A stretch of 64,000 bases of DNA from Sphagnum magellanicum (taxonomy: Eukaryota > Streptophyta > Sphagnopsida > Sphagnales > Sphagnaceae). The notes below the pieces were generated by a model that saw only the letters and a program-made list of their open reading frames with translations, ran no database searches and was not told where the DNA came from. Numbering within the stretch: the first letter of the stretch is position 1; each line of letters begins with the position of its first letter. A program made the position numbers and the translations under genes. The DNA lies in assembly GCA_021904315.1 (NCBI GenBank), contig CM038926.1, positions 4,326,390-4,390,389 on the forward strand. Direction: 5' to 3'. Shown here piece after piece: positions 3,766 to 29,493 of this stretch.

Positions 3766-3949
3766 AACTGCTTCAAGTTTTTGATCCAAAGCTCTTGGGT
3801 GATGAAAGTCAATGCTTGTTGAATGCACCAAAATTTGATGAAGTTGATCCATATCACGGATCTCGTACTTGAACATGATCAAAAGTTCAAGAATTTTAAT
3901 CATGAATGTTTTGCTCATGAATTCATTAAACTCAATTAAAATAAACAAT

Positions 3950-5522: not shown

Positions 5523-5525
5523 CAT

Positions 5526-5760: not shown

Positions 5761-5909
5761 ACACTACATTACATGTTAATTATCTAACCCAATTGTATGT
5801 GAACACGTGTACTTTTATTTTGTAATTAAATATTTAGTTTTAAGAATTACTTTGATTAATCTAGACCGTCCAAGTTGTAGCCGTTGGGGTGCGGACACGT
5901 GTTGGGTTT

Positions 5910-6500: not shown

Positions 6501-6599
6501 TTTTAAGGTTGAGATGTGCCACTATAGTCACATGTGCAACTAGATTAGTAGCATTAACCATTGCCTTGCCCATATTGGGGTTCCTTACACACCTACACC

Positions 6600-7835: not shown

Positions 7836-7837
7836 AC

Positions 7838-8343: not shown

Positions 8344-8344
8344 C

Positions 8345-10030
8345 TTATAAATACAACATAAGTATTCCACTTACTTATTACTATCAAACTCATGAAGGCA
8401 GAAAAAAAAATGAATATCTTTCATGAGAATAGAAAAATCTTCGTTCTCATGATGAAGAAGAAATAGCAAGGCTAACACTTCCTCAGGAAGCCACAGAAAG
8501 AACCAAACAAGGGAAGACAAGAAACAAAAGAAAAACAAAATTCAGAATATCAGATTGGGCAAGATTGGAGACCACATATGCACCAACATGAGAATTAAAA
8601 GATATCATGAAAACACAGAATGAAGGATCTAGAATACTGGAGCCAATGATTTTGATTCAAGAGATACTGCTAAGGAAACCACTATTGAAATACTTAAAAT
8701 TGTGAATGAGGTAGTAGATGATACTTCATCCACCACTGGAAGCTCAAATGTGAAGCAATTGCATGAAACAATAGACTTATGGAGCTTGAATCCACAGGGT
8801 CATTATGCCACAATAGACACAGTACCTGATGATATCATTTCCATGATAGATACTAGTAAAAGTAGTGAGGGATGTCACTTGGTAAGCTATTTGGAAAGGC
8901 TACACCAGCTTTTGCTGATTATGGTACTGCTTCAGCAGACTTTCTGGTTGAGGTAGGCCATGCAATATCAGTGCTAATCACATCCCCTCAATCAACCATA
9001 ACTTGGCTTATAGACATCAGTTATGGGACATGGCAACAACCTTGTACTACAGTTTGGTATTATCTCTGATCTGTTTGTTTGTGATGACCAATCATTAAGT
9101 CCCTTTTCAATGGAGGAGTCTTGGTCATCAGTAGACCCAAAAGGGTCAAAATTTGCTCAATGGTTTCACTTTGAAGGTATGAAGCAAACTCCAATAGTTT
9201 TGATTTTCTACTCTCTCACTATCTCTGTATGTTGTGTTATGTGTGTGTTCATGGTCTCAGTGGATGTAGTGTTCTATCACCAACTAAGACCATCCTCAAC
9301 AATAATCCTATAATGGGAGTGTCATGTGCCCAAAGCCTTTTGTTGCACAAATCTGTATCCTGAGTCAATAAAATCTCATCTAGCCCTGCTTTTTCACTAA
9401 CTAATAGGGTCTATGGGCCTGATACTAATAAAGATGACCAATTAGCAAGAGTTTATAACATTATGTTTGACCAAGTGAAAAATTGCAATAGTTATTAGTT
9501 TTTGTACAAATGCTAACATTACAACTTAGAATCTGTAGATGTGAGGTGAAAGTCTTTTGGACACTTGTGACTTTCTTAATATTTTCACAATCTATGATCA
9601 CATGGCATGTCCCCAAAACATGCCATTAAGGATACTGCCATGTCTATTTCATAGTATTATAGTTTTCAGTCATCTTAGAGTTTGCACATAGAAGGAAAAA
9701 ACACCTAATCTCAGCCATACTACTGGCTAGCAACAGACACCACAACAAAAACCAGACAAAGAAACAAAGAAAGACAGAAAGGGAAAGGACAGGGAAAGAC
9801 AAATGAAAAAGCTAGGAAAACTCACTGGGTACCCAGGTGTGCCACTAGAATCTAGTCCCACAGTAGCTATCTCAGATGTTGATGGGCTTCGGCGATGCTT
9901 GGATTTCTACATTCACCCATTTCAGACATCATTTAGTGCTCAGCATTGTATGTGGCATGTGAGTGCATAATAACTTCAACATATTGTAATTTCCATTTGG
10001 CCATCACAAAGGACTAGGGTTTTAGGGTTA
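8345..10030. other. Intron-like stretch in the CACTA element, no supported gene
   Basis: This lies between the two proposed TNPA-like exons. Plus-strand frames at 8702-8956 and 9023-9313 show no recognisable domain. They could be remains of another captured fragment, but I cannot support that. Confidence 0.35.
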
Positions 10031-10032
10031 AC

Positions 10033-11042
10033 TTGCCAATTTTGCTTCTACAGCTGCCTTACCACCACGCCCAAGGTGGCTTACATTTGCAATTGCCCCT
10101 CTTGCATCAACCATGTGTTCACTTTTAGTCTTGGTGTCACGTTGTTGCCAATATATCACAAATTTCTCCCATTGTTCTCGGTCCACTCCAAGTGGGCAGG
10201 CTTTGGCACCTTTCTGTGCATACCTTTTTTTAAAGCGTGCTCTTTCTCCTTTCATATATCGCCTTACACAATCCCTAAAGCTAACAGCACTTAATTCACC
10301 ACCTACATATTCAAATTTCCCATCCAATTGCAAGCGGAGTCTAGCCATGTTTACAGGGTCCTGTTCTGTAACCTTAACGACTGCCATGTTCAAAATCCGA
10401 GGTGCTAGTGACCTAATCGCACCATCCCATGCATCCTTCCCTTCACATGCACCATCAATTTTGCCATGCCTTGTCACTTGCACCTTATGGCCTGGCAAGC
10501 CTTTCTCCTTTCGTTTTTGGGCTTCAAATTCTATAGCTCGCTTTGAAGCCCGTTGTTGCATACGACTTTCAACAAAAACCTTGAGCTGGGCATCTACTTC
10601 TATTTCATTGTCCAAGGCCATGTCTGGTGCTTGCCCGCCCATGGGTGAATGTGGTTGCACCCTTTGACATAGCCCCTGATCACATACACCCCCTCCTTCA
10701 CCCCATGTTGATTCACACATGTTGTTTCTAGCCCTTCCACAAATGGCACAACAATTTGTAAGTCCCTTGTGCCCAGGGCTCAATCTTACCTCCCAATTAG
10801 GACGTTGTGACACTTGGCAAGAACTCCACTGTCTTGTGTGCCCACATTGTCCAGCATTCCATGTGCATTCTGAATTTCCAACACCATGTTTACATGCCTG
10901 ATTATTGCACCTTGCAAAGTCACCACCATGCTTGCGACTTTGTACTATTGCCGATGTGTTCTTTTGTAGCCCAGTGGCATTCACCATATCGACTTGTGGT
11001 GGGGTTTCAACCTGAGCTTTCTTTGATGTTGCTTTCTTTTCT
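10033..11042 (-). CDS. TNPA-like protein, Ptta/En-Spm domain exon
   Basis: This is a 330-residue minus-strand frame. Its C-terminal half matches the plant Ptta/En/Spm transposase pattern. A basic helix (around RQQRASKRAIEFEAQKRKEK) leads into a region with LQLDGKFEYVGGE, then a run of Arg/Lys with RYMKGERARFKKRY. After that come EQWEKFVIYWQQRDTKTKSE and a final HLGRGGKAAVEAKLA, like the family's eqW..lv.yW..S and H..G signature. Its N-terminal part contains several Cys and His residues. In En/Spm elements such proteins bind subterminal repeats and act with TNP2 in excision. A minus-strand acceptor AG sits at about 11043 and a GT donor at 10032. It runs opposite to TNP2. Confidence 0.65.
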
Positions 11043-11043
11043 C

Positions 11044-14000
11044 AAGCACACACACAACATGTTATACGTAAGGAATGGGTAGAAGCTAGCAAAACATACA
11101 GTCTGGTCATATATTGTCAACATGAGACATGTAAATCTAAAAAAAACAGAGATTTGTATGGCAAACTTATCAATCATGAACAACCCTAATCACACAAATA
11201 AGGTTATATATCAAAGGCATGCACATAAAGACTGATGACATTGAAGACAACTAACAAAGTTTTTGGTAAGAAATTCAGAAAATACCTTACCATGAGGTAT
11301 AACTTTATAGAGGAAATCCAATTTTCTTTTGTATCCAACCAAAAGTTCTATGGAAAGAACATACGGATCACTAAGGTAATCCAATGATGAATCATGACAG
11401 ATAGGATCTTTCTATAGAAGAAGGGCACACAAAGAGATAATGGAGCACAACCAACAGCAAGGGATTGACTTTGGACTTTCGAACCTTTTGGGATGCACAA
11501 CAAAAAGTTTAGGACCTTCTTAGGACCTTTTCTCCATAACATAGGACTGGTTTTACAAACTTGGCTACACAACCTTCTTTCTAAGTCATACGATCTGGAA
11601 AATACAGAATGAAGGACAGCCATCCGTTTCTTCTTATTGTTGTGGCAGCAAGATTGAACCTTTGACGTTCAATTTTCCCATTTGAATCCATAAATCTCCC
11701 ATAATTTTTTTATTAGCATAGATACTAAAGGAACAAAAAACTTCTTTGATTTAGGCACATACGAAAAGTTTTAAATCAAAAATAGAATTGGTGAGCTTTT
11801 CCAATATTTGGGCTTCTCTCACATGCTCTTAGGATCTTGCAAAGACTGAGCTACAGGTTTGACCATCATATAGCACTTAACTGGAACCAATGTTACAGAT
11901 TACATAGATGACACCTCTATATGAAACAGAACAAATTTTGGCAACAAGTTTGAAGTGCTTTTGCCTTAACCTTCTAAGCTTGTTGAGAGACTTTAATTAA
12001 CCCTTTACAAAACACAGCATGATCAGCAAATTCCTGAAAGAAAACCATTTCATATTTGCATTACTGAAATCATGGAGATTTATAAGATTATTTCTGGACA
12101 TGAAAGAAAACCTGATACAAAAGAAAAACTCTGATGAACAAAATCATGCCTCCAAGGGAGAACAAACAACTTAATTAACACAACCTAAGCACCCTCAAGA
12201 TTAAGGGACGCAAAGGAAGCCAAGGAGATCATAACAAACCCCAAGGACTCTCCTATTATCTCAAAGTAGGTCAAAGGGAACTAAAGAAGGCCAAATCATC
12301 ACAATTGCCTATTTTTTTGAGCTATAGGTCTTATTCCAATCCCAAACGGGGACCATGGAAAACCTCTAGCTCATCCTACCTAAAGAAGATAGGGAAAGAA
12401 TAGGCTCACACTCCTATGTGTAAAAGGTAAAACCCTCCCAAGCCCTCCCTATGGACAACAAATTAGAATAGCACAAACTCGTGGAATGCACAAAAGCATC
12501 TGCTCAAACCCTCATCCTCCAGAGAGTTGCTACATCACTTGAAAAAACCTCTTAAAGGGCCCTCCAAACATCAAAGAGTGGTAGGACTTGAGCTGGTGTT
12601 GGAAATGGTACAAAGCCATGACAATAGTGGGAATTGAGTGCACAATACTAATATTTATCCCAGTAACAGACTTAGGTGAACTGCAAAGGAAAGCCAAACT
12701 CAAATGGTTGAAAGCTAACTGTTTGGGCAACTTTGTGCTCCGACACTCCAGGCCATTGCACAACTTAGATCCCTCACTTTTTAAAGAGTAGGTGTAGAAC
12801 TTGTCCCCTCATATGCCTTGTGATCTCCATACATATGGGTCCATGATATCATTCAACTTATGCTTTTCAATGGGCAAAGCTCAAGTGGGGGACAATCACA
12901 AATTGTGGCCTATGACAACTACCCATGGGCACGTGATGTTCAGAAACAGTGAGACATTGTAGGCACAAGGCAACCAACTTAAGAATCTAACCAGTCCAGT
13001 ACTTGCCATCATGCCCATAATTTAAATTGAAATAGCTATGTCCCAACACATATTCCAGTTTTGACACATCCATATGAAGTGGATGGCTATGCTTGTATGG
13101 AACAGTTCTTTAGATAGGAAGAGAGATTTTTGCAGCAAAGCAAGCTCCACTTCACCGCATCCTGCCACAAAACAGCTAGGTACAAAAAGCTCTGCCGAAA
13201 TTGACATACAGTAATCATACTTTGTTAGACTCTAATAAGGTGAATCACAACAGTCATTGCTTTTCACATCAGTATCATAAACTAGGGAAACCCTCAAATT
13301 TCAGGACAAAACATCATCCAAAGAGAGGATGTTATGAAACTCAATGTTCACATTTGGCTCAAGGCACCAGATTCCACATCAAACATGATAAATAAACCGC
13401 TTCCCAAGACCCCTTCTTTCTTGATTCCATTAAGTGCAAAAGAAAGACACATGCACAATACCCCAAAAAATTGCAACAAAGGCACTCTAGCTTCCCAGTG
13501 AACTTTCATTCTTTAAGAAAAAAACTTGCAAGCCTGGGACCCAAAGCATCCACCTACTTTTGATCCCTTTATGCTTCAAATCTTGAATCCTGGCCTGTGA
13601 GTACACAGCAGATGCATAGCCAAGATAAAAGGTTCATTATTTGCCTCTTCCATGGTGACCAACCACTGCATTTGCCTCTTCCTGATCTTAACTGAAAGCT
13701 TGAAGACACTCTGGATAGAGGCAATAATTTCCAAGAATAATGATAGACTTTGCAAGCTCTGAATTTAAAGAAACTACTACTAGCTCAAGCAAAAATCTCC
13801 AATCTTGATAAAGGAAATCAAGAAAAAGTGAACTACCGAAACCCCTATAACACCACAGACCCATGTGTTTGGAATACGGAAGTGGTCTAATGCACACCTA
13901 TTGGATCCATCATTGGCTTGTGAGTTCTCCATCCCTTTCTACACCATGTTTAATACCAGCAACCTCAACCTCTGTACAAAGAAGAATCAGAAGAGGTTTG

Positions 14001-14450
14001 AACCACTAAGGAAGCACGAGTCCTCTTCTGTACAAACAAAAGAACTTTGGCCTTCCACTCACTTAATACATGGCCAACATTAAGACCGAGAACAGAAGGA
14101 AAAAACTCAAACAGCAACAAAAGCATACGAACCAAGTTCTTGGTCTTATACTTGGAGAGAAAAACAATAGAAAACTTACCTTGAGACATAAGAGAAAAAA
14201 GGAAAACCAACCTTCTATTGTAATCTCTGTAGCCAAAAAATCTGTGAGGAAAAAGGTGAGGGATCCCACTATGATTTGGTTTCACATCATCAGAAGGAGA
14301 ACCAGTCTCCTCAGAAACTGGCGAAGAAAGAGGAGGTAAACTTACAACAACATTAGGAAGAACATTGACAAGAACCCAAACATTGTTAAAAGGACGAGCA
14401 AATGAAGGATTGCTGCCCTTTCTCCACAACATTGCAGAAGCTTTATGTAC
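11044..14450 (-). other. Long putative intron of the TNPA-like gene
   Basis: No supported gene is seen. Short minus-strand frames (11348-11623, 12530-12763, 13022-13207, 13688-13897) might be decayed pieces of an inserted element such as a LINE. No diagnostic reverse-transcriptase motif can be read. Confidence 0.3.
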
Positions 14451-14854
14451 CCTAGGAGAACGTCTTCAATAATGTCGTTACTTTTAGTATCTTTGACATC
14501 AAAATGGACCTCAAAAACAATATTTGATCGGGGGGAGGGGTACATTACATTTGGTGTGGGGGTCCGTTTGCTAGGTGCCTTATTCTGTTCCTTCACAACT
14601 GAAGATGCAACTGGCAGCTCAGAACCTTCTGACTCCTCTGCTTTTGAGTTAGAGTCGCTGCTACATGAAATGTCGCATTCACCAGATGCTGTTGATGTCG
14701 ACGACCCTTCCTCTTCCACCACATGACGATGTGGTTTTCCAGCATTCCTAGTGCTCCTCCTCTTGCTTTGGTGTCCAAGTGTTCTCCCATCCACCACCTT
14801 TTGGGTGGACTTCTTATTTGTCTTCTTCCTCCCTTGCATGGTTGCTGAGTTCAT
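14451..14854 (-). CDS. TNPA-like gene, probable first exon
   Basis: This minus-strand frame starts at a Met at 14854 (MNSATMQGRKKTNKK). It encodes a basic stretch with a run of Lys/Arg residues, then a Ser/Glu/Asp-rich acidic segment, then a basic Thr/Pro segment. It ends near a good donor (agg|gtacat at about 14450). The composition resembles the low-complexity N-termini of TNPA-type proteins. The phase does not fit the acceptor at 11043 directly, so another exon or a mutation must lie between. That this is the same gene is an inference from strand, order and composition. Confidence 0.35.
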
Positions 14855-15203
14855 GAAGTGACGACTGCCAAGTGACCGAGTGTTTCCAAAATACAGCAAA
14901 GGAGTAATTAGTTTGGACTAAGACTGTCTCAATAAGCACATGACCACTAACTAGCATACAAACCTAATTTTAAGCTATGCATGAAGTAAAAGATCACTAG
15001 AAACCCTATTTCATGGTAGCGCTGAACATTTCAATCCCTAAACCCTAACCCCATGAAAAATTTAGAATAGATTGGAATTTGGAGAATAGCTACAACCTAA
15101 CACTAGAATAAAGATTATTGAAGCGTGTTCAAACTATTTGGTAGGCGTATACACAAATCTCACGCACATAGTCGGACTTCCAAACTCTTTCATATAGTGT
15201 AGG

Positions 15204-16023
15204 TGTCGCAACCCCACTTTGGCCAAGTGTGGGGGTGAAGCCCAACACTTGGAAAAGTTGGAGGTTGGGAGTCTTCCAGGACTCCCGAATGTTCAGAGCT
15301 CGACAGCAAGGGGCAAAGCACCTCGCATTGGGGTGTTCTTGGTGTCATTGGAAAGGTCTTGAAACGTAGATATCGAAAATGCCCTCGCATTGGCGATTCG
15401 GACATCTGCAGCCCAAGTTATGGGCAAAAGAAGGGCCGGGAGTCAAACTGGCAGTTTGACTCCCGACCACTAAAAGTCGGGAATTGACCTCTTCCCGACG
15501 TCCGATTGGAGCGTGCGACATGGCGTTGGAAAGATCTCGATGAGGGCTACAACTTTGGTTCAGACCTCGTCGCGATCCAACTCTGCAGTCGGGAGTTATG
15601 GCGGTTCAAAGTTCCGGGAGTCCCGCCGAGACAATTTCGGGACTCCATTTCGGGAGTCCCGGGAATTTGTGCCATTTGGATGTAGCCTCCGCGACCAGGC
15701 GCAGAGAATACTATATGGGGGAAGGTGGTGGCTTCCCCCGAGTCCGGGCCGTGGTGAGTCTTGTGTGTCCAAGTGCCCGTGGCAAGTCCCAACACCAAAG
15801 GGTGTCCCGAATGCTAAACTAACCCGATTTGGTTGGTTTTTGGATGCAGATTCACATGAGCTAAGCTAGTCCCTCTTCCTAGTCTAATCCCGGGGCTCCC
15901 AACTCGACCCTCTACCCCTTTCTAGAGTTGGAAGCCGGGAGCGTGCTACCAAGTTCAACTTTCCGCAACTTGACTTTGTGAAACCCTCAAGTGGGTTTCA
16001 CCCCGTGACTTGGGAGCGCGTCA
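15204..16023 (+). mobile_element. Solo LTR (fossil), nested in the CACTA element
   Basis: This 820-bp GC-richer unit begins TGTCGCAACCCC and ends GGGAGCGCGTCA. It is flanked by perfect 5-bp duplications, gtagg at 15199-15203 and 16024-16028. TG...CA ends plus a 5-bp duplication and no internal coding region identify a solo LTR of an LTR retrotransposon. Two relatives occur in this window. It retains many CpG sites, which suggests a fairly young or unmethylated copy. It inserted after the surrounding transposon sequence was in place. Confidence 0.85.
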
Positions 16024-16794
16024 GTAGGCAATAGAGATTGCACGATCCATTACTGAATTTTGTATTAGCTGGTGATGCTCTTTAGTTACAAGGCCTTCCT
16101 GCAGGCCACTAGAGAGTTAGGGTTTAGGGCAAGCTCGAGCTTCAAGAATAAATTCCTAATCCTGGAACTTGTTTCTTGTGGTTTTTGGGTTTCTGCAGTA
16201 TAGGTCGCTCATCAACTTACCAAATCTCAATTTGATTGCAATTGGTCTAGGATCTCTTGATCTTGATCTTTGTTTCAAGACAACGTAAGTCATCAAGATT
16301 ATCACACTTATGTGAATCACTAGAATTTGTTATATATTCATGTTGTTGAGAAATTAGCTCAACACAGACATTGACATAGTATCACATGTTTGCAACAAGT
16401 TGTTACTGTGAAAACCTTCTTGTTGGATTCTTTGTGATCAGTGCAGCAGACAAGCGATTCTTCTTTGGTGGGTTTTGATTGAAATCATGTTTGTACTCAC
16501 TGATCTTGAAATGGGGACTGTGTTGTTGGATTTGTGCAAATTGTTGCTGCTGCAGCAATCTCAGTATTGAATTCCCTATAATGAGCTTTATCTTTCCAAA
16601 TGGTTAAACCTTCGAGCCAGTTGCATTCCTGGGAATTACCTCTGGGGTAATGTTGCAATTTTGATGTTGCAAAAACCAACTTTTCCATAATTTCTTCATG
16701 GCTTGTTGGCTACTGTATCCATCGTCATCATCCTGTCAAAAGCAAAAAACCAATTGTTGAACAAGGAATTCATGCTCTTGAATTCATGTAGGAA

Positions 16795-16990
16795 ATGTAG
16801 CAACCCCATTAAACCCTAGACCCTCCTGAACACACTACTTTTTGCAAATGAAGCAATCCCATTGAATTCTAAACCCTAAACCCACTGTGTTTTGCAAATG
16901 AAGCAAGCCCATTAAACCCTAAACCCATTGCGCTTTGTGAATGTAGCAAGCCCGTTAAACCCTAAACCCGCTGTGTTTTGCTTATTGTTT
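16795..16990. promoter_or_regulatory. AAACCCTAA (telo-box) repeats upstream of the RPL5 fragment
   Basis: Four imperfect tandem units of about 50-60 bp each carry cattaaaccctaaaccc-type sequence followed by a tttgcaaatgaagcaa-like phrase. AAACCCTAA telo-boxes are known from promoters of plant ribosomal-protein and other translation genes. Their position before the RPL5 exons suggests that the promoter region was captured too (inference). The 16029-18096 stretch otherwise holds no supported gene. Confidence 0.45.
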
Positions 16991-18096
16991 GATTGAACTC
17001 TGTCTGGAACTTTCTATTTTACAGACTCAAACTTATGGATTCTGTCTGGGAATTCGAAACAGTACGTTGCCAGAGATTGTCATTGGGTGTGAGTATTTCA
17101 GACTTGCCTATTGAGAATGGTCCTAGGTTACTTCTTGACAAGGAGATCACTCTTTGTGTATGCAATTATTGGGCACCTCTTATGGATTGGAGGGTTCTTA
17201 TTTTGCTACCTAATTTATAATAAACGGGATGAAGGTCAATAGATCTATTCTTATATATCTATAGATATGGTTAAATTTTTGCAAGTTATAAAATCATCAA
17301 CTCCCAAAAAAAAACATCTTGATTTTCCATGAGTCTAATTTTCTATTATTACTTTTCTTTCCAGTTAAATATACCTCCAAAGTAAATCAGATGAATACCT
17401 TATTTAGAACTAATGTCATCTTAAAAAAATTGTAATTAAACTCCTCCAGTCCTCGTGAAACAGAAAACCTGTTTTTTGAGTTGTTATATTTGTTGTGCCT
17501 CTTACACTGTTGAGGGACTGATGATGGTAGTTCGTCTGTTGTCATGGCATACAATGCTTTCCATGTATGAATACTCTTTCACCTTCAACCAGGAAGAGAA
17601 GTTGCTAGGCTGGATTCCATCAACCTGTAAGTGATTTTTGCCCGAGTTGTACACTTTGCACATTCTTGGTGACAAAACCTATTAGCACAATTTCTTAGGG
17701 TGTTTGCTAAAATCTGTGAAAAATTGAATGATTTTTGGATTTGGAAGTACCAATCAACAGATTGTCCATAACCAATTACTCCTAGTACTCTTGGAGTGAA
17801 ATTAGCTTAGTGGAAGCTTTTGGAATCTGATAGGGATTCTATTCCTTTTGATCTAGGTGGCACTCTCTGGATTTTGAGTGAGACTTACAGTGTCTGCACA
17901 TAAGTCCAATTTTCTTTGTAATCTTTTCATTAATAGTTGATCTGAGTGGCAGGAAAAAATAATTTGTAGTGCCCCTGCATGACTGCCTGTCTCCAGTTTT
18001 GGGTTCCTAATGTGTTATGTCAATTCTACTTTACTACTTGTGTATGTTGGAACTTGAGTAGTATATGCATCTGTTCCTTTACATTTATTTGTCCAG

Positions 18097-18786
18097 ACCA
18101 ACAAAGACATTGTGGCTCAAATCATCTATGCCACTCTTGCTGGTGACATTTTGTTGACTGCTACCTATGCCCATGAGTTTCCACACTATGGCTTGAAGGG
18201 TGGTCTCACCAATTATGCTGCTGGTATGCCTTTTGTGTGCCAGTCCAAAATATCTTTGCAAGAACCTGGAGCAAGTAGCTATTGGCACTTATGTGCCTGG
18301 CAAGCAATGCTTGTAATCACCTTCCCCAAGCTCCACTTTTATTAATGGATGGGTCGGATGTGGGTTATGGTGGTCCATCACTGCTTACTGCACAGGTCTT
18401 CTGCTGGCTCAACATCATTTGAAGAAGTTGAGCTTGATGAGGACTCTACCCAGGCAATGAAACGGTTTGTGATTTATTTGGTTTTTGTATGCAAACATTC
18501 TGTTATTTGATGTTTGTAGAATTGCTTTTAACTCATGGGCACATTGGGTTTCTAGCTGCAATGACAACTTTTTAAAGTCACATAATAGTAGTGGCAGCCA
18601 CAACAATATGTACCATGTGCAGGCCATAATTAGGTTGATATTTTGATGTTTTGGTTATTCCTGTCTGCAGGCTATTGGTGAGGACTTCAATGTTGAGGAG
18701 GGTGGGGCAAATGGCCATTTAGGGCTCTTCTTAATGTGGGTTTGGTCAGGACTACAACTGGAAACAGAGTTTTCAGTGCCCTGAAG
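18097..18786 (+). pseudogene. RPL5: RPL5 (60S ribosomal protein L5, uL18) gene fragment
   Basis: Three consecutive exon-like blocks match the middle of L5. Block 1 (18097-18223) follows a cag acceptor and reads [17 protein letters not shown] then [13 protein letters not shown]. It ends at a GT donor. Block 2 (about 18384-18464) reads YCTGLLLAQHHLKKL. Block 3 (18671-18786) follows tgtctgcag and includes [12 protein letters not shown]. In another frame it includes the L5 text [21 protein letters not shown]5 is the large-subunit protein that binds 5S rRNA. Blocks 2 and 3 contain small frame-breaking changes, block 2 lacks a clear acceptor, and the N- and C-terminal parts of L5 are absent. It is therefore a captured, decayed fragment with introns retained. 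Confidence 0.85.
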
Positions 18787-19600
18787 GTACCTTTCCACTT
18801 ATGTTTTTTGTGCATATTCTCATAGCAAGGTTTACTAGTGTCAGGATTTGTTCATTATTTGGCATCTTATCTAGTCCAGTTTTTGTCCAGTGATCCTAGA
18901 TTTGTATCATAATATAGACAGTCCTTATGTATAGCTTCATGAACTTTCTTAATTTCTCTTTGTTTACTTGCACTCTCTAGGGAAATTGCATGTAGCATAA
19001 ATTATCTTCTAAAAGAGGACTAAAGGATTCTCTGTTTACTCTGAAAATGAGAAAACAAATCTGTGTGGATGTTATGTGGTGTGTGCTAATGTATTCTCAA
19101 TGTTCACAGTAGCTTTATCAGTGGGAGTCATCTCATGGGCTGATTTTCTTTCTGCTTATTACATGGCTGGGTGTTTTATGTATTGTATTGTTGCTTTGCT
19201 CAGCTACTTTTCTATTTCTTCTATCTTATTTTCAAAAGTAGCCGATGAAGTATTTACTGCAGAACAGTAGTGTTTTTGTAATTATTTGTTGTTGGAATTG
19301 AATTTAGTGTGAGTAGGGTTTCTGCTTGTTTGTGATAAGAACGTTTATTCTCAGGGAGTGTCTGTGCACACATGTTTTTATGTGTGTAACTTTAGATTCA
19401 AGAGTGTTAGGCACAAATCTAGTGGCACACAACAATTTAGTTGTATTAAATTAACTAAATTGTTATGCATTTGATAGGATCATCCGGCTTTGGGAAGAGG
19501 CCTGAAGTTGAGCTTCGCATTTGACATGCATAATTCTTTCTTGAACTTGCTTGGGCTTGGCATATGATTGACATTTTGTTTTTTCAAACTTGCGCTTTTC
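18787..19600. other. Intron-like or junction sequence, no supported gene
   Basis: This T-rich sequence follows the last RPL5 exon. A hydrophobic frame at 19076-19270 has no recognisable family. A boundary between two captured fragments probably lies somewhere here. Confidence 0.35.
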
Positions 19601-19612
19601 CAGGTGTGATAT

Positions 19613-19915
19613 ATGATGCTTGCTGAAACTTTATCATTTTGGGTCATATGTGCAAGCTATGATGATATTACAACATCTGCACTAGCTCCCACACCCATCT
19701 TTGCACCTGTCTTAACCCCAACCTCATCTACCTCACCCTCAACTACACCACCTTTGTCTGCCCCAACATCACCATCACCTCCTTCATTGTCTCCCATACT
19801 CTCACCTCATTCTACAGCTCCAGCACCATCTACAGGTGTCATGGAATTTGTGCTTCCATCTCGTATAATCTCTCTGTCCCTTTTACGGTTCTTCTTATGC
19901 CTTTCTTTGCTTTGA
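19613..19915 (+). pseudogene. Pro/Ser/Thr-rich C-terminal exon, possibly of a GPI-anchored wall protein
   Basis: The frame follows a ttttccag acceptor at about 19603. It encodes a Pro/Ser/Thr/Ala-rich stretch with SP, TP and AP dipeptides (residues about 22-75). A small-residue segment (APAPSTG) and a hydrophobic C-terminus then end at a stop. That layout is typical of arabinogalactan-type, lipid-transfer-like or early-nodulin-like GPI-anchored proteins. No folded domain is present to say which. It sits among other captured gene fragments, so capture is likely but not proven. Confidence 0.4.
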
Positions 19916-20386
19916 ACAACACTGAAACAAGGTTTCACTACTGATGCTACTCCGCCTCATTCATAGACAAGGTCATTCATGAACCCCTAAACTGTAGCTG
20001 ATTTCACCCTGGCGTGTTCTCTACGTCTAGTTTGGAAAGATCAGTTCTCTTATGCCCTGTACTTTGCTTATTGGAGGATCAGAACACCTGTCATTGGAAT
20101 GTAGGTGATAACCACATCTTGAAAATGGAGATAAAGGTATGAGATGCACAGTTGTAAAAGACTTTTGTGATGAATTGAGGTCAATGGAAGGAAAGATGTT
20201 TGTCTAGAACTGATCTCCACTTTGTGACAGAGGGAGCTGTTGGATGTGTTTTCAATGTTCTTTTTGGTGATTGGTGGCTGTGGTTGCACTTCAGTGGTCA
20301 TGCCTCCTTCAGCTCTTGATCAGTTGAGTATGTATCTCTAATTTGCTTTTCCAAAATTTTGCCTGAGAGTTCCGATCAAGATTTGC

Positions 20387-23300
20387 TTGTCATTCCATCA
20401 TTATTTGAGGGAAGACATAATGTCAATGGCTTACCCAAGAAGGCAAAAAACAAGGGATGACAAGTTGTGGAAGCGAGAGTTCACATGGGCCACACAACAT
20501 GGGGTGGACAAGATGCTGTGTCCATGCGCCAAATGTGAAGGAAGGGGCAGACTGGTTTTACTTAGGACAGTTAAAGACCATCTAGTCCTAAACGGGAGGC
20601 ATCCATTATTTAGAGTGTGGAAAGGCCCATGCCAAACTGACCACTCTGATGAAGAGTGGGTTGAAGCAAGCAGGGTAACAGTAAACCCAATGCAAACAGA
20701 GATGGAGGTGCATGTAGTGGATGAGGCTGTGAATGTGAACCAACTGTTGGATGACCTATTCCAAATGCCAGAGGAAGAACATGAAGGTGAGAGGGTTGCA
20801 AGCTTGTCTTCAGACCATAATGTAGAGGGAATGGAGGTAGCACGCATGGTGCAAAATGCCATCCAGATCATGGAAGAGTTAGCAGCATTGCCTGAAAGCA
20901 TGCTCGGCCAGAATAACCATGATAGGGGACAGGGGGGTGTGGACAATGACATGGGACTAGGTGAAACAGGGGCCCCATCAGTAGCAAGTGATGATGACAT
21001 CTCAATGGAGGCCAATTATCTATGGGAAGCATGTCAGCCTTTGTATAATGGTGCAAGGTGCACGAAGCTAGCATCAACATTGTTGTTGATGAATGTTTGC
21101 ACAGTACATGGCGTATCCAACAAGTTCATGGATGAGTTATTAGCACTCCTTCATAAACACCTACTGCCAAAGGATAACCTTCTACCACCTAGCATGTATG
21201 CAGCTAAGAGCCTTACTAGGAAAGTAGGCCTAGACTACAAGCACATCCATGCATGTGTGAATGGCTGCATTTTATTTCGGAAGCAGTATGAAACATTGGA
21301 GGCTTGTCCAAAGTGCGGGGTTGCTCGGTACACGAAATTTGGCAGGTCTCTTGTTCCACAGAAAGTTGTGCGGCACTTCCCCTTAATTCCTCGGTTGCTG
21401 CGTATGTACCGATCTCAACACACATCAGAGATGATGACATGGCATGCTAGAAACAAGAGCATAGATGGGAAAGTTCATCATGTGCCTGACAACAAAGCAT
21501 GGCAACACATTGATAATACATGGCCTGATTTTGCAACTGAACCTAGAAATGTAAGACTAGGTTTGGCCATAGATGGGGTGAACCCTTTTGGGGACAAAAA
21601 CAATGTTTGGTCCACTTGGCCAGTATTACTCCTAATCTATAACCTCCCACCATGGCTAATCACAAAGAAGTTCTTCATGCTCTTATCTATCATAATTCCG
21701 GGGCCTGAGAGTGTTAAGAGTGCAAACTTTGATGTCCTAATAACTCCTCTAATTGAAGAATTCCAAGAATTACGGGAGGGGGTTAGAGGGCTTGACATAC
21801 TACAACTTGTAGGTAGAAGACAATTTTTAACGAGGGCCATATTGATGTGGACGATTCATGATTTTCCAGGGTATGGCTTAGTTTCTGGATGCCAACATCA
21901 AGGTTACAAAGCATGCCCTCCATGTGGATCAGGGACAACTAGTCGATGGTCAAAGGAGTTGGGCAAGGTAGTATTTGAAGGAAATCGGAGGTGGTTGAAT
22001 CGAAATCACCCATACAGAATTCATCCCAATGCCCAACATTTTAATGGTCATGAGGAGTTAAGGGGAAAGCCGGATATAATAACAGCTGCTGAGGCGAAAA
22101 GACAAGCCCACAGAACTGAAAAGTGGGTGGCTGCAGGAAATGTGTTGGGGGCAAAAGGGTGTCCATCAAAAAGCAGTGGGATGAAGCGTTTATGTGCATT
22201 CTGGGGTCTGCCATATTTGGAGGTGAGCATGAATTATTCAACCCACCCACCTCAATTGTGTTACATGTTTAGGCCAACCATTCAACAAGGCATTAGGCAA
22301 ACACATTTTTGGTCCTTGTTTAAATTTGTCAATTTGTGAGATTTCAATTATTGGGTGGCATCATTATATGGGTGTTTACATCTTGGTATAGTAGTTCCCA
22401 GGCACAAATTGTGTTAATAATACCATTGTTTAACCGAAATGGTGGTTGCTGCAGCATTTACTCATTAGGCACATGTTAGATGTGATGCACATTGAGAAGA
22501 ATGTTTGTGAGAGTATGATCAAATTCATATTTGGATTGAAGGACACAGTCAAGGTTCGACGGGACATGGAAGTGTGCGGAATCTGAGAACATCTATGGTT
22601 GAAACGGGATCCTCAAAGGCCGGGCAAGATTTTTAAACATGTTGCCCCCTATGTCCTTAGACCAAAAGAGCTCCAAACTTTCATGAATAGGTTAGCCTCT
22701 TTGGAAGTGCCAACAGATTATTGTGGCTCATTAGGAAAACATATCATGGATAAGAAACTTGGGTTAATGAAGAGCCATGATTGGCATGTTTTAATGCAAC
22801 AATTAATGCCTCTAGCTCTAAGGGGCCTAATGGATGCTCATGTATGATTAAGTTTGATGCGCCTTAGTCGAGTGTATCGTAACATATGTGCAAAGGTTTG
22901 GGATCCAATTGACCTACCAACCCTAAGGGAAGATGTAGCAATCACTCTTAGTATGCTTGAATGGGAATTCTCGGGAGCATTTTTTGATGTGATGTCACAT
23001 TTAACATTGCACATTGTAGAAGAACTAGATATTTGTGGCCCAGTTCATACTCGTTGGATGTACCCAATAGAACGGGCCATGAAGGTTTTCAAAGGTTATG
23101 TCCGTAATAGGTCAAGGCCAGAGGCTTCCATGGCAGAAGGTTACATGGTGGACGAGACAATTGGGTTTGTCACTGAATACCTACAAGATTTTCGCCATGT
23201 TCGACAGAGAGTCTGGGATGCAGATGAAGAGGAGGGGGTTTATGGTGAAGTTCTGGAAGGGGCTGCCACAAAGTTGACTCTGGACCCTGTAACACGAGAG

Positions 23301-23839
23301 GTGGCACATCAATATGTTATCACAAATGTGGCATGTTTAGCACCGTGGGTTCGGTACACAACCCTTAACCCCTTAAACCCTTGTTGGAAAATTGTAAAGA
23401 GGTCATAGATGCATGGGTAAGTTACTTTCTTGTTGAACAACTAGCTAAAATTAATAAACTTAATGTGGGGCTTGGCTATTGGGGGTGCAGCATGTATGAG
23501 CAAGAAACAATTCGGATAAGGCAGTTAAGAGCGGAATTTGAAGCACAATGGCGGAGGGGGCATAGAACAACAAGCAGGCATGTGGAGTTTCCACCAGAGC
23601 TCCAAGAGGTGCAAAACTTGGCAAGTTGGGTGCGTGAAGCAATTCGGAGCCATATCGCACAAGGGGGTGTGCTTGAAGACCAAGATGCACTCCATCTATC
23701 AGTTCTGCCATCCCTTTTTGCTTCAAGGTACACAAAAATGAAGGCATATGGAAATCATTACAGAGTTTTTATAGATACCTCTGGCAACACAAGTGCCACG
23801 TACGATTCTGGAGTTGCATCAGTTTTCCATCAAGAGTAG
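20387..23839 (+). pseudogene. TNP2-type CACTA transposase, disrupted
   Basis: Exon 1 (20387-22222) encodes a 612-residue N-terminal part. It has a Cys/His transposase-associated motif (CPCAKCEGRG then TVKDHLVLNG), an acidic linker, a CxxC pair (CPKCG), LAIDGVNPFGDKNNVWSTWP and FDVLITPLIEEF. WTIHDFPGYGLVSG and CPPCG follow, all hallmarks of the TNP2 family. A gtgagc donor and gctgcag acceptor join it in phase to exon 2 (22455 on), which carries HMLDVMHIEKNVCESM and later GPVHTRWMYPIERAM. A third block has MKAYGNHYRV and TYDSGVASVF. Exon 2 has in-frame stops near 22584 and 22845. The first reads TGA where Arg (CGA) is expected. The frame shifts near 23390. Family proteins cut and join the element's ends; this copy cannot make a full-length product. 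Confidence 0.9.
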
Positions 23840-23878
23840 CAGTCAACAGAGGGTACGAGACTTGGGGCGCTTCAATAT

Positions 23879-23904
23879 GTGTGTGTGTGTGTGTGTGTGT
23901 GTGA
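23879..23904. repeat. (GT)n microsatellite
   Basis: About 13 tg/gt units lie just after the last transposase block. Such a tract can vary in length between copies. Confidence 0.9.
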
Positions 23905-24387
23905 AAGGTCATCTGAGCTTGAGGGTTTTCTTGAAGCAGGGGCTTATGGGATATCAGAGACATTGGTTGAAGAGCTAGTGGAGGATAACAAGATGTGCTT
24001 GAATAATTATGTGACTGCTATGATGTGGTTATGTTGTTGCTAACTGGTATTTTTTTCAATGTCTAGGTACCTGTTGCAGTTGGGGGAAGTGGTGATGTTC
24101 ATCATGACTGCCTGAAGTGCTTGATAAGCAAAAAGGATAATTCCATTACAGAGGTTCATGAATGACAGGTGCTGAACGAGCAGGGTTTTGTGCACAATGC
24201 AAGAGGGACTTATGTTTGCTTGATATTTGGTGCTGATTGGTGAGTGCTGATCAGAAACAGCAAGAGTGCTGTAGCCATAAAAGAAATCTTTCTAGAGATC
24301 CAAGATTTGCAATCTATGAAGTAATGAGGTAGGATAACTGTGTGGCACCATTTGTGGTGCCTAGGGTGGTGGGAAGACAACAGCAGC

Positions 24388-25690
24388 ATGGCTGTGACAC
24401 ATAGGCTGGAGGCAACAACGTTGAGCAGTATTGATGGAGTTTCTTTTACAGCATTGTCAGGACACCAGAGCTTCAGCTCTAGCCTAGAGAAATCTATTAA
24501 TGTCCGAGATGGCCCTAATGAAGGCAAGGTCATGTTGTTAGGAGGGGGTAAGCCATCTGCAGCATCTCAGAATGGGGAGCTTCAACCCACGACGACAGCG
24601 GTGTTGTTAGATTTGGTCTCTGTAATAAACCTTAAGCCTTACCAGTTGGATTTACATCGTGTCATCAATGCAGCTGCTGGGCCTCCAATCGATGATCCCC
24701 AGTCTAGACCCCTCAAAGCTTGTGGGGTTGAAGAACTGAAACGTGTCCGGCAATGCCTTGTTGAGAATGAGAAACAAGCCAGGTGATCTATAGCTTTCCA
24801 GACCATTAGCTGCAACTGTAAGATTAAGGCACTCTTGAGGAGCACTTGATGGATCACAGGGTGGATTTAGGGAAGTTCTTTGGTAGGTCTTCAGTGCATC
24901 CCCCTTGGGTTGATGTAAGTTTTCTTGTGTTGTTAAATGGCAGATTATGAATAAAACACCTGTCTGAGGCAATGGCAAAGCTCAACAAGATCCAGAACAT
25001 GTTGCAGACCAGGAAGCGGTCTAGACTTGAGTCTAGCACACAAGAGCAGGCAAGTTTAGCAGTTGCCAGCAGTGGCCACATGACAACAACCACACATGGG
25101 AAAGTGAGCTCAAGCGTTGTACCCAATCATGTTAGCACTCTGGACATCATCAGTGGAGCTTCACGAGCAGGAGACAAGAACAAGAATGGCACTAATCCAA
25201 ACAAGCGAGTTCGCACATCTATAGCTGATGTACGGGTGTGTATATGTAAACCCTCTGTAAACCCTAAAGTTTCAGGTTTAAGACTTTCATTATTGATTCA
25301 TGATATTGTGCAGGTTCTTGCAAGCATATATTCTAAAATGCTAACTGTTGTTGGGAAAAATTACAGCTTGAGGGTTGTCCCAGCCATTTGAGTGTCCAGC
25401 GGTCATCCAGCATAATACAAGAAAGGGAGCAGGATGTGCCCAGGCCAAGCAGTTATCTGGCCTTGCAAGTGGAAGACAAGGAGAGTATGCCACTGGGAAC
25501 CAACCAAGGGGGTGAGAAGGTAAAACTAAAAGGGCGGCGCTCTAGTGTTAAGTCTGAGGTTTCCCTGGTAGTGGTTGTGGCCAATGGGACATCTGGTGGA
25601 GAGTATGACCACAAGTGGACTGCACAACATCAACGGTTGAGCCTTGACAGCGGCCGCTCACGACCTAGTGAGGGGCATGGCTACAGGTAG
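24388..25690 (+). pseudogene. Fragment of a plant nuclear SRRM-like family gene (AT2G19390/AT4G29790-like)
   Basis: Exon a (24388-24782) starts MAVTHRLEATTLSS, includes GVEELKRVRQCLVENEKQAR and ends at a gtgatc donor. Exon b (about 24960-25235) reads LSEAMAKLNKIQNMLQTRKR and later NPNKRVRTSIADVR. A 131-bp intron (25236-25366) has GT and ttacag borders. Exon c (from 25367) continues in phase with LEGCPSHLSVQRSSSIIQ and ends EGHGYR. From memory, the order of motifs (EELKRV...KAR, LNK...KKRSRSE, NKR.RTS..D.R) matches the plant proteins often annotated as serine/arginine repetitive matrix-like. Only the N-terminal part is present. An exon between a and b may be missing. Function is unknown. Confidence 0.65.
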
Positions 25691-25744
25691 GGCTCTTGGC
25701 CCATGTGATGAAAGTGAGTGATCGGAACTTGAAAAAACTCAGCA

Positions 25745-26541
25745 GAATTGACCAATTTCAGTTTGCCATTGGGGCTCATCCACCCACTGCAGTGGCCGCC
25801 ATTCATGCAAGCCCTTGCAGACTATAGAGCACATCAGGGGCTAGGCCTTCCTGAGCTTCGTATTACAGGCATAGGGAAAGATAAGCAAATTCTTGAGATG
25901 ACAAGCAGACGCCTTGCTGACTTTGCTCAATCTATTAATCTTCCATTTGAGTTCATCCCACTCATTCAAAATCTAGATTCCTTGAAGCCCAATATGCTAC
26001 AGTTGAGGACTGGGGAGGCTCTTGCAGTCAATTGCATGCTTCAGCTCCATGGGCTGCTAGAGGAAGCACCTGTGGCATTGGAATCTTTCTTGGGCATGTT
26101 GTACTCTCTTAACCCCAGAGTGGTGACCCTTGCTGAAAGAGAGATGAGCAACAACCAACCAATCTTTCTAGATTGATTTGCTGATGCACTCAACCATTAC
26201 TCCACTCTTTTTGACTCACTTGATGCCACACTACCTCCCTCAAGTTCAGAAAGGATTAGAATAGAACAACTATGGTTTTAGGAAGAAATTGCCAACATTG
26301 TGGGATGTGAGGAGTCTGAACACCTCATCGGTACCAAAAGTTCCATCAGTGGCGGATTTTTATGGAGAGAGCAGGCTTTCAATTAATTTCAACTAGCGAA
26401 TTTGCTCTCTCTCAAGCCGGACTTCTCCTGAGACTTCACTATCCATCAGAGGGCTATCACCTTGTTGAGGATGATGGGTGTCTATTGCTGGGTTGGCAAG
26501 ATCAACTTCTTTTTGCGGTATCTTCTTGGAATGCACTTTGA
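25745..26541 (+). pseudogene. GRAS-domain transcription regulator fragment
   Basis: The frame 25748-26176 begins inside the VHIID region (LGLIHPLQWPPFMQALADYR). It continues through LRITGIG, RRLADFAQSINLPFEF, MLQLRTGEALAVNC and SLNPRVVTLAERE. After a TGA where Arg is expected (FLD-stop-FADALNHYS), the same frame goes on through LFDSLDATLPPSS and IRIEQLWF. In another frame near 26400-26530 it ends with ALSQAGLLLRLHYPSEGYH and LLGWQDQLLFAVSSW, the SAW end of GRAS proteins. It therefore spans VHIID to SAW and lacks the N-terminus and first leucine heptad. It carries several stops and frame changes. The subfamily cannot be assigned safely; SCR/LAS-like wording is my best guess. Confidence 0.85.
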
Positions 26542-26544
26542 TAT

Positions 26545-27470
26545 GATTGCATGCTAATTAAACAACTGTGACATTCTAGTTCTTGTAGGTCACTTTGTTT
26601 ACCACACTTCACAGCTGAAACTCAATAGAAACAGGGCTGTGATCAACCTTATGGATTTAAAGATCTATTCTGGCACAGGCTGCATTCATATACTTGGTTG
26701 CCTTCCAGGCATATACACAGTTGGAAGAGGACTAATGTTATACTGAATGAGCATTTGGATCATTCCGTTTGTAAATGCAAGTAGCTCACAGAATACCATC
26801 AATTGAACAAGCATGATTTTAGGAGGGCTGGAGCATGTCTAGACCTCTTACCGTGAGGATTTAAGCATTGATGAACAAAGGTTCATTTCAGAATAGAGAG
26901 ATCTTGTTTATTGAAATCATCTGATAACTGTTTGATCATTTCTCATTTCAACACGTGCATTATATATGAGATTATCCTCAAGTGTTCAACTGAATTGAGA
27001 TCTGCCTTAGTGTAATGAGTTGGGTCAGAGTTCCCAGTTGCTACAGTGAAATTTGAAACTGTTTAGCTGATGATGTTTGCCTCACTCAGAACATCTTGAT
27101 TGTTCGAAATTTTCTGTTTTCATAATGACGACACATAATCTATTCAGTTGGAAATGAGGAGCTTGTGGATCAGCAGTCGTGAGCAGCAGATATTGCTCGC
27201 TTTGTTGTCCCTCACATTCGGTCCCTATGACAAACAGTACCAGAAAAAAGCAGGTGTACTTGTAGGCTATTATACCAGGACTAAAGAGAGCTTGGTCTTG
27301 ATCTTCCTTGTTTGCATGGGAGTCCAAATTACACTCTTCCTCTTTGTTTCCTGTTTGTGGCTCCACCGAACTTTGTTGTTACTCTTGTGTTGTGCCCACA
27401 AAATTCTGATAGAGAAGAATCTTCTCTTACTGAATAATATCAGGCAGATTTGCAGAAGCGGAGGTCATCA
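26545..27470. other. No coding match; probable 5' region of the captured RHM piece
   Basis: No supported gene is seen. The last 350 bases may be the 5' UTR or first intron of the RHM fragment, with an ag boundary (aatatcag) near 27443. This is an inference from position. Confidence 0.3.
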
Positions 27471-27475
27471 TCATA

Positions 27476-28332
27476 ATGGGGGAAGCCACATACACTCCCA
27501 AAAACATCTTGATAATTGGTGCAGCAGGATTTATTGCATCTCATGTTGCCAACAGACTGATGCGCAACTACCCACATTACGAGATCGTGGTGCTGGACAA
27601 GCTAGATTATTACTCCAACTTGAAGAATCTGTTGCCCTCCAAGTCCTCCAAGAATTTCAAGTTTGTGAAAGGTGACATTGGGAGTGCAGATCTTGTGAAC
27701 TACCTTCTCATTACTGAGGGTATTGACACCACTATGCACTTTGCCACCCAAACTCATGTCGACAACTCATTTGGCAACAATTTTGAGTTCACAAAGAACA
27801 ACATCTATGGGACCCATGTGTTGCTGGAGGCATGCAAAGTGACAGGCACTATCCACCGCTTCATTCATGTGAGCACAGATGAGGTCTATGGAGAAACTGA
27901 GGCTGATGCAATTGTTGGAAACCATGAAGCATCGCAGCTGCTTCCCACAAATCCCTACTCAGCCACCAAGGCTAGTGCAGAAATGCTGGTGATGGCATAT
28001 GGCCGCTCATATGGGTTGCCTGTCATCACCAGACGAGGCAATAATGTGTATGGACCAAACCAATTCCCAAAGAAGCTCATCCCCACATTCATTCTTTTGG
28101 CCAGGGGAAGCCCCTCCCCATCCATGGAGATGGATCTAATGTGCGAAGCTACTTGTACTGTGAAGATGTGGCTGAAGCGTTTGAGGTTGTGCTGCACAAG
28201 GGAAGTGTTGGTCATGTTTACAATTTTGGGGAAGAAAGGGAAGGAAGTGTGACTATGGACGGTGTGAAACCGCCGAGAACTCCCCGAAAGGCAGGGTTTG
28301 TTTCTCCAAGAGCTTCTTCTTCTTCTTCGTAG
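27476..28332 (+). pseudogene. RHM: RHM (UDP-L-rhamnose synthase) N-terminal domain fragment
   Basis: The frame from 27476 encodes the UDP-glucose 4,6-dehydratase half of plant RHM, an extended short-chain dehydrogenase. It includes the NAD-binding motif (ILIIGAAGFIASHVANRL), VVLDKLDYYSNLKNL, HFATQTHVDNSFGN, HVSTDEVYGE, the catalytic Tyr/Lys in NPYSATKA, and GNNVYGPNQFPKKLIP. Near 28105 one base is missing. The RHM reading then resumes in the next frame (VRSYLYCEDVAEAFEVVLHKG, HVYNFG) from about 28135. Similarity stops near 28240, and unrelated sequence encodes a basic Ser-rich tail ending at 28332. The enzyme normally acts in the cytosol, feeding rhamnose to pectin and flavonoids. The second (epimerase/reductase) half is absent. 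The coding sequence is otherwise very well kept, so capture was fairly recent. Confidence 0.92.
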
Positions 28333-28747
28333 TTGTCTCTTCCCCCAGTTGTCGTAGCTGTGGCTCTCCTGCTCCTGCTGCTACTGTTGTTGTATGGACG
28401 CATTAAGATTTGCAGCTTCGTTTTTGCTGCTGCACCTGAGACTTGAAGGACTTGAAGTTGTTACTACTGTTTCCATATGGCCTCCAAGACAATTCCGAAG
28501 AGTTGAAAGATCTTCAAAAGGACCCGCCTACATCATGCAGAGCCGGTTGCTCATCCTCCTTCCTTTTACCCCCGTCGTCCCAATCTCTCACCACTATTTT
28601 TGTCGTTCTGAAAGTATTACTTTTCCTGTGTGTAATCTTTTGTCTTGATAGTTGAAGAAATGGTCGTATCTGATCACCTCGTGACTGCGTGATATGGCGA
28701 AGAGTTTGTGACTGTGTAGAGAATGCCTTTTGCATGGTGCTGCATTC

Positions 28748-28975
28748 TCTAGGGTTTAGTTGGTTCAAAATCCGTATGTATCTTTTGGTCTCTTCTATCT
28801 TCAGTCATTTGTGACTGTGCTTTAGGCAGCAGTTATCATGGCACATCATCAGCCAAGCTTGTTTTGCTAGGGTTTAGTTCACAATGCTTATGTATTTGTG
28901 GTCTGTTCTTTCTTCTTTGTTTTGTCATTTGTGCTTTGAGCAGCCATCACGGAACATCATCAACCAAGCTTTGTT
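28748..28975. repeat. Direct repeat, two units of about 110-120 bp
   Basis: The series ctagggtttagttggttca, gtctcttctatcttc-type, gtcatttgtg, gcagc and catcatcagccaagctt occurs twice in order, from about 28750 and from about 28868. It lies between the RHM fragment and the right end of the element. Confidence 0.65.
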
Positions 28976-29229
28976 TCAAGATGCTTGATGAGGACAGCAT
29001 TATGCTCTCCTTTGACCCTTGCTGAACAGGACTTTCATGTTCTAGTACTGGTTTTTTTCTTCTTCTCTATATTCTGGTTATATCTATAATGATCTCTTGG
29101 TAGAAGAGCACCTTAACTTAATACATTTGACCTCCTTCATGCATGCACCCTAAACCTTATCAATGGGATTGTCATTTGTAGGCAACCCTAATCCTAGACA
29201 TGACTACAAAAATAGTGTACCTAGCTTAC

Positions 29230-29490
29230 CAAAAGACCATAGTTGGCATATTTTGGTTGCACATGCAACTATGAGTATATGCATATCAAATATATACGAT
29301 GATATATCACAGAAATCATCCAAAGGTTGGGATGAAGGTGATCATAGTTGCACCATAGTTGCATACACACCCAAAAAGGGGGCAAAAATCCATTGTAGTT
29401 GCATAAAAAACCAAAGATAGTTGCATGTGACCGATAGTTGCATCCCAGTTGCAAACATGGTGGTTGCATATGAAAGAATTTCTAGTAGTG
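29230..29490 (-). repeat. Right terminal inverted repeat and AGTTGCA cluster
   Basis: AGTTGCA occurs at 29346, 29357, 29397, 29419, 29433 and 29447, with GGTTGCA near 29462. Further TGCAACT and GGTTGCA copies lie around 29256-29270. The element ends TCTAGTAGTG at 29490, followed by the cat duplication. The motif is mostly inverted relative to the left end, as expected for terminal sites bound by one protein. Confidence 0.85.
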
Positions 29491-29493
29491 CAT

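Follow-up and report, generated by a model that had tools for sequence, protein, structure and literature searches.

A CACTA transposon of Sphagnum magellanicum that carries fragments of several unrelated host genes

We found that a 64,000-bp stretch of DNA from Sphagnum magellanicum (the window; C20:4326390-4390389 in an assembly of 439.0 Mb and 31 contigs) harbors a CACTA element that is complete and 23,965 bp long (window 5526-29490), and that fragments of several unrelated host genes, copied as genomic DNA with their introns, lie in this one element. The most probable explanation, to which we give a probability of roughly 0.92, is that ancestors of the element copied at least six, and probably seven, stretches of the host genome serially and left the donors in place (transduplication). 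The evidence consists of the ends of the element, target site duplications, the nearest host loci of the pieces, their breakpoints, junctions common to three copies, and a capture order that can be read in part.

An earlier note, made from the sequence alone, had proposed four captured fragments (RPL5, an AT2G19390-like gene, GRAS and RHM), and perhaps a fifth, in series around the transposase gene TNP2 at 18097-28332. Pfam and PDB matches, open host reading frames and a coding-strand test indicate that the four named pieces are real. That interval is the right-hand part of the element, the pieces are larger than their exons, and two further pieces lie outside it. Several pieces do share one element, but they do not form a simple series, as RPL5 lies inside another captured piece.

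The element and its close copies

The element has the features of the CACTA (En/Spm, DTC) class. Its terminal inverted repeats start with CACTA (CACTATTAGAAATT / CACTACTAGAAATT). The 5' end, CACTATTAGAAATT, is at 5526 (also written CACTATTAGAAATTTGCC), the 3' end, AATTTCTAGTAGTG, is at 29490, and both are flanked by a 3-bp target site duplication, CAT (5523-5525 and 29491-29493). The TNP2-type transposase gene region (20342-23840), whose plus-strand orientation is also that given to the element, matched Transposase_21 (PF02992, 8.1e-62) and DUF4218 (PF13960, 1.2e-32) in Pfam. Subterminal repeats are dense: the first kb has GCAACT at 7/kb and AGTTGC at 3/kb, and the last kb, within the plus-strand 3' region of the family (28230-29490), has AGTTGC at 6/kb and GCAACT at 1/kb, compared to a baseline of 0.375/kb for each motif over 12-28 kb. 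In-frame stops break the TNP2 reading frame. Because of these stops the window copy is probably inert, though transposase could come from relatives. On the minus strand, a 337-codon frame at 10028-11041 possibly encodes a TNPA-like (Ptta/En/Spm) accessory protein; its match to Transposase_24 (PF03004; E 0.067) is under the cut-off.

Two close copies in the same genome, on contigs C8 and C22, are collinear with the element and have the capture junctions in common with it, where each copy retains them. The C8 copy aligns with gaps from window 5526 to 29490 and has its own target duplication (AAG/AAG). It is missing the equivalent of 18483-19406, and it contains TNP2 with a gap and, in the part that was read, one in-frame stop. 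The C22 copy is missing 19079-25097, including TNP2. Changes private to the window copy include a 151-bp deletion in the GRAS piece and an insertion of a repeat of ~820 bp at 15204-16023 that has no counterpart at the same place in the C8 and C22 copies. This repeat is high-copy (4745 first-look candidates, of which 40 were scored; full-length scored matches were 96-98% identical) and is possibly a solo long terminal repeat. Transitions account for 72-90% of the differences between copies.

Captured pieces and their nearest host loci

The nearest loci of the host pieces elsewhere in the genome are ~93-97% identical to the window over 0.7-1.9 kb, far beyond chance. The genome searches score the best candidates only, and absences reported here hold among the matches listed. 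The donor genes are still present elsewhere, as in known CACTA elements that carry gene fragments: six of the seven loci were fetched, all of which continue beyond the breakpoint into other host sequence, and the seventh was seen as a search match.

Two of the pieces are nested. Window 16064-17820 and 19222-19936 (both plus strand) match one contiguous stretch at C11:2.79 Mb, with local alignments of 89-94% and 94% identity over ungapped columns. This stretch belongs to an aspartyl protease gene, of which it is the 3' part; upstream exons of the donor match TAXi_N at 1e-7 to 2e-6, with one of three just under the cut-off. The two halves adjoin in the donor (positions 1768 and 1756 of that locus), at the place where the window holds RPL5. 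About eleven protease bases are replaced at the insertion place, and no target duplication was found there. The Pro/Ser/Thr-rich exon that the earlier note had offered as a possible fifth piece (19610-19915) is in the right half of the protease piece, and lies downstream of the TAXi_N exons of the donor. Two paralog loci retain its open frame and C-terminal end; the exon itself matched no Pfam family and had no third-position excess relative to the paralogs (differences 8, 8, 9). The donor lies in a cluster with at least five matching places in ~0.11 Mb (C11:2.79-2.90 Mb), and identity to the window varies along the gene in this cluster.

The RPL5 (uL18) piece (17820-19209/19227, plus strand; the match ends at 19209) is nearest to loci at C3:15.29 and C3:15.08 Mb (95% and 94%). 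Its identity is supported by Pfam (Ribosomal_L5e, 7e-13) and by matches to uL18/L5 chains in PDB, and four splice borders agree with those of one of these C3 loci. RPL5 is multi-copy in this genome, including copies on C19, C8 and C3 and at least five within 0.28 Mb of C6 (C6:8.07-8.35 Mb). Eleven loci match nearly the same interval, and we considered that RPL5 might be a mobile unit of its own. This idea was rejected: homology between the gene copies continues past the left border in the window.

Three pieces lie downstream of TNP2. Window 23915-25760 (plus strand) is the 5' part of a gene at C11:5.745 Mb (97% identity). Beyond the piece, another ~6 kb of the donor gene aligns in register with two paralogs; the C8 copy of the element retains a further stretch of the gene. 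The piece is coding on the plus strand, with a third-position excess relative to two paralogs in all six exon comparisons; "AT2G19390-like" is the label of the earlier note. The GRAS piece (25758-27103, plus strand; Pfam 7.8e-36 and 2.4e-19) comprises the middle of the gene, its C-terminal domain and 3' flank, and its donor is at C12:20.63 Mb (95%). The third, 27103-28229 (plus strand), is the 5' part of an epimerase/dehydratase-like gene (Pfam GDP_Man_Dehyd/Epimerase; relatives of dTDP-glucose dehydratase), which we take to be RHM. Its nearest host locus is at C10:17.15 Mb (95%). The host frames are open over 553 codons (RHM) and 324 codons (GRAS).

The two pieces outside the interval of the earlier note are in the 5' half of the element. 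Window 12143-13674 aligns to C6:5.956-5.958 Mb at 95-96% identity but lacks ~766 bp of the donor stretch. The piece starts ~10 bases or less from where a host coding frame ends, and it is antisense to TNP2. The host frame matches PF00198 (7.5e-20) and is presumably that of the gene for DLST (the E2 of 2-oxoglutarate dehydrogenase). That is, the element contains the 3' flank of this gene on its minus strand. In relatives of the element, the family core is uninterrupted by this piece. The other piece, 8635-9692, matches C10:11907197-11908262 at 92%, and no frame at 8.6-9.3 kb matched a Pfam family. It is enclosed by an insert (8414-9794) whose ends are a short repeat that occurs elsewhere; the family core is uninterrupted at this insertion point in relatives.

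Order and mode of capture

RHM is, by its structure in older relatives, the oldest of the pieces that could be compared. A search with RHM listed 19 matches: one is the window, nine cross the 3' breakpoint of RHM into family sequence, one lies beyond the breakpoint only, and eight stop within ~10 bp of it, as expected of host genes. Those that cross it are the two near copies, C18, C8:24.60, C14, C15:1.45, C13, C5:21.17 and C16:18.17. TNP2, RHM and the 3' region are collinear in C18, C8:24.6, C15:1.45 and C16:18.17, and TNP2 is 94-95% identical in four members (query 431-3944 of 3944; window 20367-23880). If matches to both ends are taken to mark a single element, the member on C18 is ~42.4 kb long (4060650-4103047) and that on C8 ~43.7 kb (24594092-24637840). 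Relative to the C10 locus, the RHM frames of the window, the C8 and C22 copies and C18, the one older relative that was read, all lack the same 4 bp. In C18, homology of RHM to the host extends leftward for ~750 bp beyond its limit in the window. RHM came first: the older relatives have the same 3' breakpoint and, in C18, the same frameshift. We rejected the possibility that RHM was captured only in the lineage of the three copies, as it is present in the wider family.

Among the matches listed, the other six pieces are confined to the window, C8 and C22 copies, apart from their donor and paralog loci. The AT2G19390-like and GRAS pieces came later and met an already truncated RHM. The protease piece was captured before RPL5, because RPL5 interrupts it. 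The order thus covers RHM relative to the rest, the AT2G19390-like and GRAS pieces relative to RHM, and the protease piece relative to RPL5; the C10-matching, DLST, protease, AT2G19390-like and GRAS pieces are unordered among themselves. Three larger relatives hold 16-32 kb of other DNA at the site of the protease and RPL5 cargo (C18:4073672-4095062, C16:18176565-18208335 and C8:24610082-24626601).

The earlier note had suggested ordering the captures by alignment to donors and divergence. The donors could be aligned, but the distances do not order the captures. Uncorrected divergences (window-donor / C8-donor / window-C8) were 3.7/3.9/3.2% for the DLST piece, 5.7/4.3/2.3% for the left half of the protease, 4.2/3.1/2.0% for the left of RPL5, 2.7/2.4/1.6% for the AT2G19390-like piece (23920-25096), 4.2/3.7/1.8% for GRAS and 4.4/3.3/2.1% for RHM. 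Structure makes RHM the oldest piece, yet its distance to the donor is not the largest, and its distances are nearly star-like (below); therefore, distances alone give no order. In all nine segments that have a host donor, the window is farther from the donor than from the C8 copy and the C22 copy (some segments are missing one copy).

Based on these results, the history would have begun with capture of RHM in an ancestor of the older relatives too. Later, the AT2G19390-like and GRAS pieces would have been placed between TNP2 and the truncated RHM, the protease piece upstream of TNP2 with RPL5 then placed inside it, and the DLST flank in the 5' half. Finally, the loaded element would have transposed, giving rise to the window, C8 and C22 copies.

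The joins bear on how the pieces arrived. Genomic DNA, not cDNA, was copied, because introns are kept and the donors overlap by 1-3 bp at two joins: 3 bp between the AT2G19390-like and GRAS pieces (TCA, 25758-25760) and one base between GRAS and RHM (27103). Non-coding sequence aligns to the donors across the protease, RPL5 and AT2G19390-like pieces. The GRAS/RHM junction had been placed near 26.5 kb, which we reject: this position is approximately the end of the GRAS coding frame. The pieces might instead have arrived as separate smaller transposons or retrocopies nested in the CACTA element. Nested insertions do occur here: the 820-bp repeat is one, and the C10-matching piece, enclosed by an insert with repeat ends, may have entered this way. 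However, the joins inspected (protease/RPL5, AT2G19390-like/GRAS and GRAS/RHM) lack target duplications and terminal repeats, the retained introns and short overlaps do not fit such insertions, and no mobile unit ends at the left edge of RPL5, which gene-copy homology crosses. We give this explanation almost no weight. The earlier note had said that separate retrocopies, or the same gene order at a locus without transposon ends, would refute capture; the pieces are not retrocopies, given their introns, and such a locus was not among the matches listed in this genome, where the pieces were found in donors or gene families and in copies of the element.

A second alternative is the model for Arabidopsis Pack-CACTA elements, in which aberrant excision removes the ends at which two neighboring elements face each other, so that the chromosomal DNA lying between the elements is trapped. 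In the part of the source considered, this is a described route of gene capture by CACTA elements (PMC13317346), and it accounts for genomic pieces with introns. It predicts host DNA between element halves, but RPL5 is inside another captured piece and the AT2G19390-like and GRAS pieces abut with no element sequence between them. In addition, no element sequence was found beyond the captured piece at the AT2G19390-like, RPL5, GRAS and RHM donor loci, in flanks of ~1-2 kb. We consider trapping unlikely. In serial copying, the pieces may have been joined when a break or gap within the element was repaired, by template switching or by end joining; the junctions fit such repair with a switch to another template.

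Several observations weigh against serial capture as the explanation. The donor of the C10-matching piece is a candidate, placed by a search match at C10:11.907 Mb. The true donor of a piece may be a locus other than the nearest one: RPL5 and RHM are both multi-copy. At the right border of RPL5, comparison of loci revealed that both C3 loci are themselves missing ~1.4 kb relative to another RPL5 copy, starting just where the window match stops. The RHM distances are nearly star-like (window-C18 4.2%, window-host 4.4%, C18-host 4.2%), and therefore a single capture of RHM rests on the breakpoint and frameshift. The 1-3 bp overlaps could be chance. We looked for the 3' end of the C22 copy and did not find it. 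In one AT2G19390-like segment, 2.4% separates the C8 copy from the donor, less than the 2.9% between the window and C22. Lastly, the copies differ from the window by 2.6-4.9% left of 18 kb and by 1.5-2.5% right of it. Thus, a single history for the whole element is not proven. The left part (5526-18000) is about twice as diverged as 18000-29490, which suggests exchange with other family members or differing mutation rates.

Strand, constraint and comparison with known elements

The earlier note had put all the pieces on the transposase strand and raised the possibility of chimeric transcripts. Five of the six oriented pieces (protease, RPL5, AT2G19390-like, GRAS and RHM) are on the TNP2 strand, but the DLST piece is reversed. 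At least five of six are expected in 7/64 chance cases (p ~0.11, one-sided), and therefore no strand bias is shown. It is conceivable that the same-strand order was selected, or is functional, and that the element makes chimeric transcripts with a role. The five same-strand pieces, the four kept splice borders of RPL5, the GRAS frames of the C8 and C22 copies (no stops or indels over 250 codons) and the ratio of nonsynonymous to synonymous differences (N:S) for RHM between C8 and C22 (6:5) are in its favor, as is Tgm-Express1, a soybean CACTA element with five host gene fragments that yields spliced chimeras, according to the part of the source considered (PMC1947982). In contrast, the DLST piece is reversed, RHM has the common frameshift, and the window copy of GRAS is disrupted by two stops and by deletions of 1 and 151 bp. 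The other five RHM pairs of element copies had N:S of 10:6 to 21:6 (window-C8 10:5, window-C22 10:6, window-C18 21:7, C8-C18 21:6 and C22-C18 19:6).

The neutral expectation for N:S is ~2 (transitions only) to 3.4. For GRAS, the element copies gave 9:4 (window-C8), 12:3 (window-C22) and 5:3 (C8-C22). Comparisons to the host, which include the constrained host branch, gave 15:14 (window), 11:11 (C8), 9:12 (C22) and 17:10 (C18) for RHM, and 20:12 (window), 13:12 (C8) and 14:11 (C22) for GRAS. The C8-C22 ratios are below neutral on 11 (RHM) and 8 (GRAS) changes only. With these small counts, there is no clear constraint on the captured RHM and GRAS frames. A selected role is thus very unlikely, and the fragments presumably have no protein function. 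Chimeric RNAs could nonetheless arise by splicing between exons on the same strand whose splice sites are kept.

A broader reading is tentative, and we lean against it: this lineage of large, transposase-bearing CACTA elements (two of ~42-44 kb) might be a progressive collector that stays mobile while pieces gather at a few sites, in the stretches that separate TNP2 from the 5' core and from the 3' end, and that carries exons from other chromosomes onto the small C20. Once there, the exons could be transcribed into chimeric RNAs and be taken for sex-linked gene gains. Sphagnum has a V sex chromosome 20 of ~5 Mb, according to the part of the source considered (PMC9946827). C20 is 4.72 Mb, beside contigs of 17-26 Mb, and because of its size is probably this V chromosome. 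Should C20 prove to be the sex chromosome, models of "sex-linked" genes may in some cases be fragments that a transposon has brought in. Outside the element, the window also contains a tandem array of three 466-bp units (41372-42759) and two copies, 99% identical, of a 297-bp unit (52252-52849).

Our search of openly licensed papers found no report on CACTA elements with gene fragments in Sphagnum. For gene capture by CACTA elements in mosses, it found only the Sphagnum genome paper, in which, in the part considered, "gene capture" refers to sex-chromosome genes (PMC9946827). The comparisons that follow likewise draw on parts of the papers cited. Tgm-Express1 is likewise a CACTA element that holds a series of fragments of unrelated host genes, with both exons and introns, but it is 5.7 kb and made of gene fragments, whereas the Sphagnum element is 24 kb, has a TNP2 gene, and has older relatives that reveal part of the order (PMC1947982). 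Like Pack-CACTA and other Pack-TYPE elements, it has captured coding DNA between terminal inverted repeats. Pack-TYPE elements are defined as non-autonomous, whereas the window element has a transposase gene, broken by stops; the C22 copy, which is missing TNP2, is a better fit to that definition (PMC8903248). CACTA families with host genes or gene fragments are also described in wheat, with 140 capture events on 3B (PMC4290129), and in Chenopodium, where elements that keep their coding domains (one element is called complete) have gene fragments upstream of transposase-associated domains (PMC8978399). Six or seven donors in one element are not described in the parts of these two papers considered. 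Close copies, older relatives and likely donors in one genome make the breakpoints, the nesting and part of the order directly readable, so that models of capture can be tested. CACTA elements that carry gene fragments were already known; what marks this one as a clear new member is that part of the order is resolved, that one capture is nested in another and that the transposase gene is retained.

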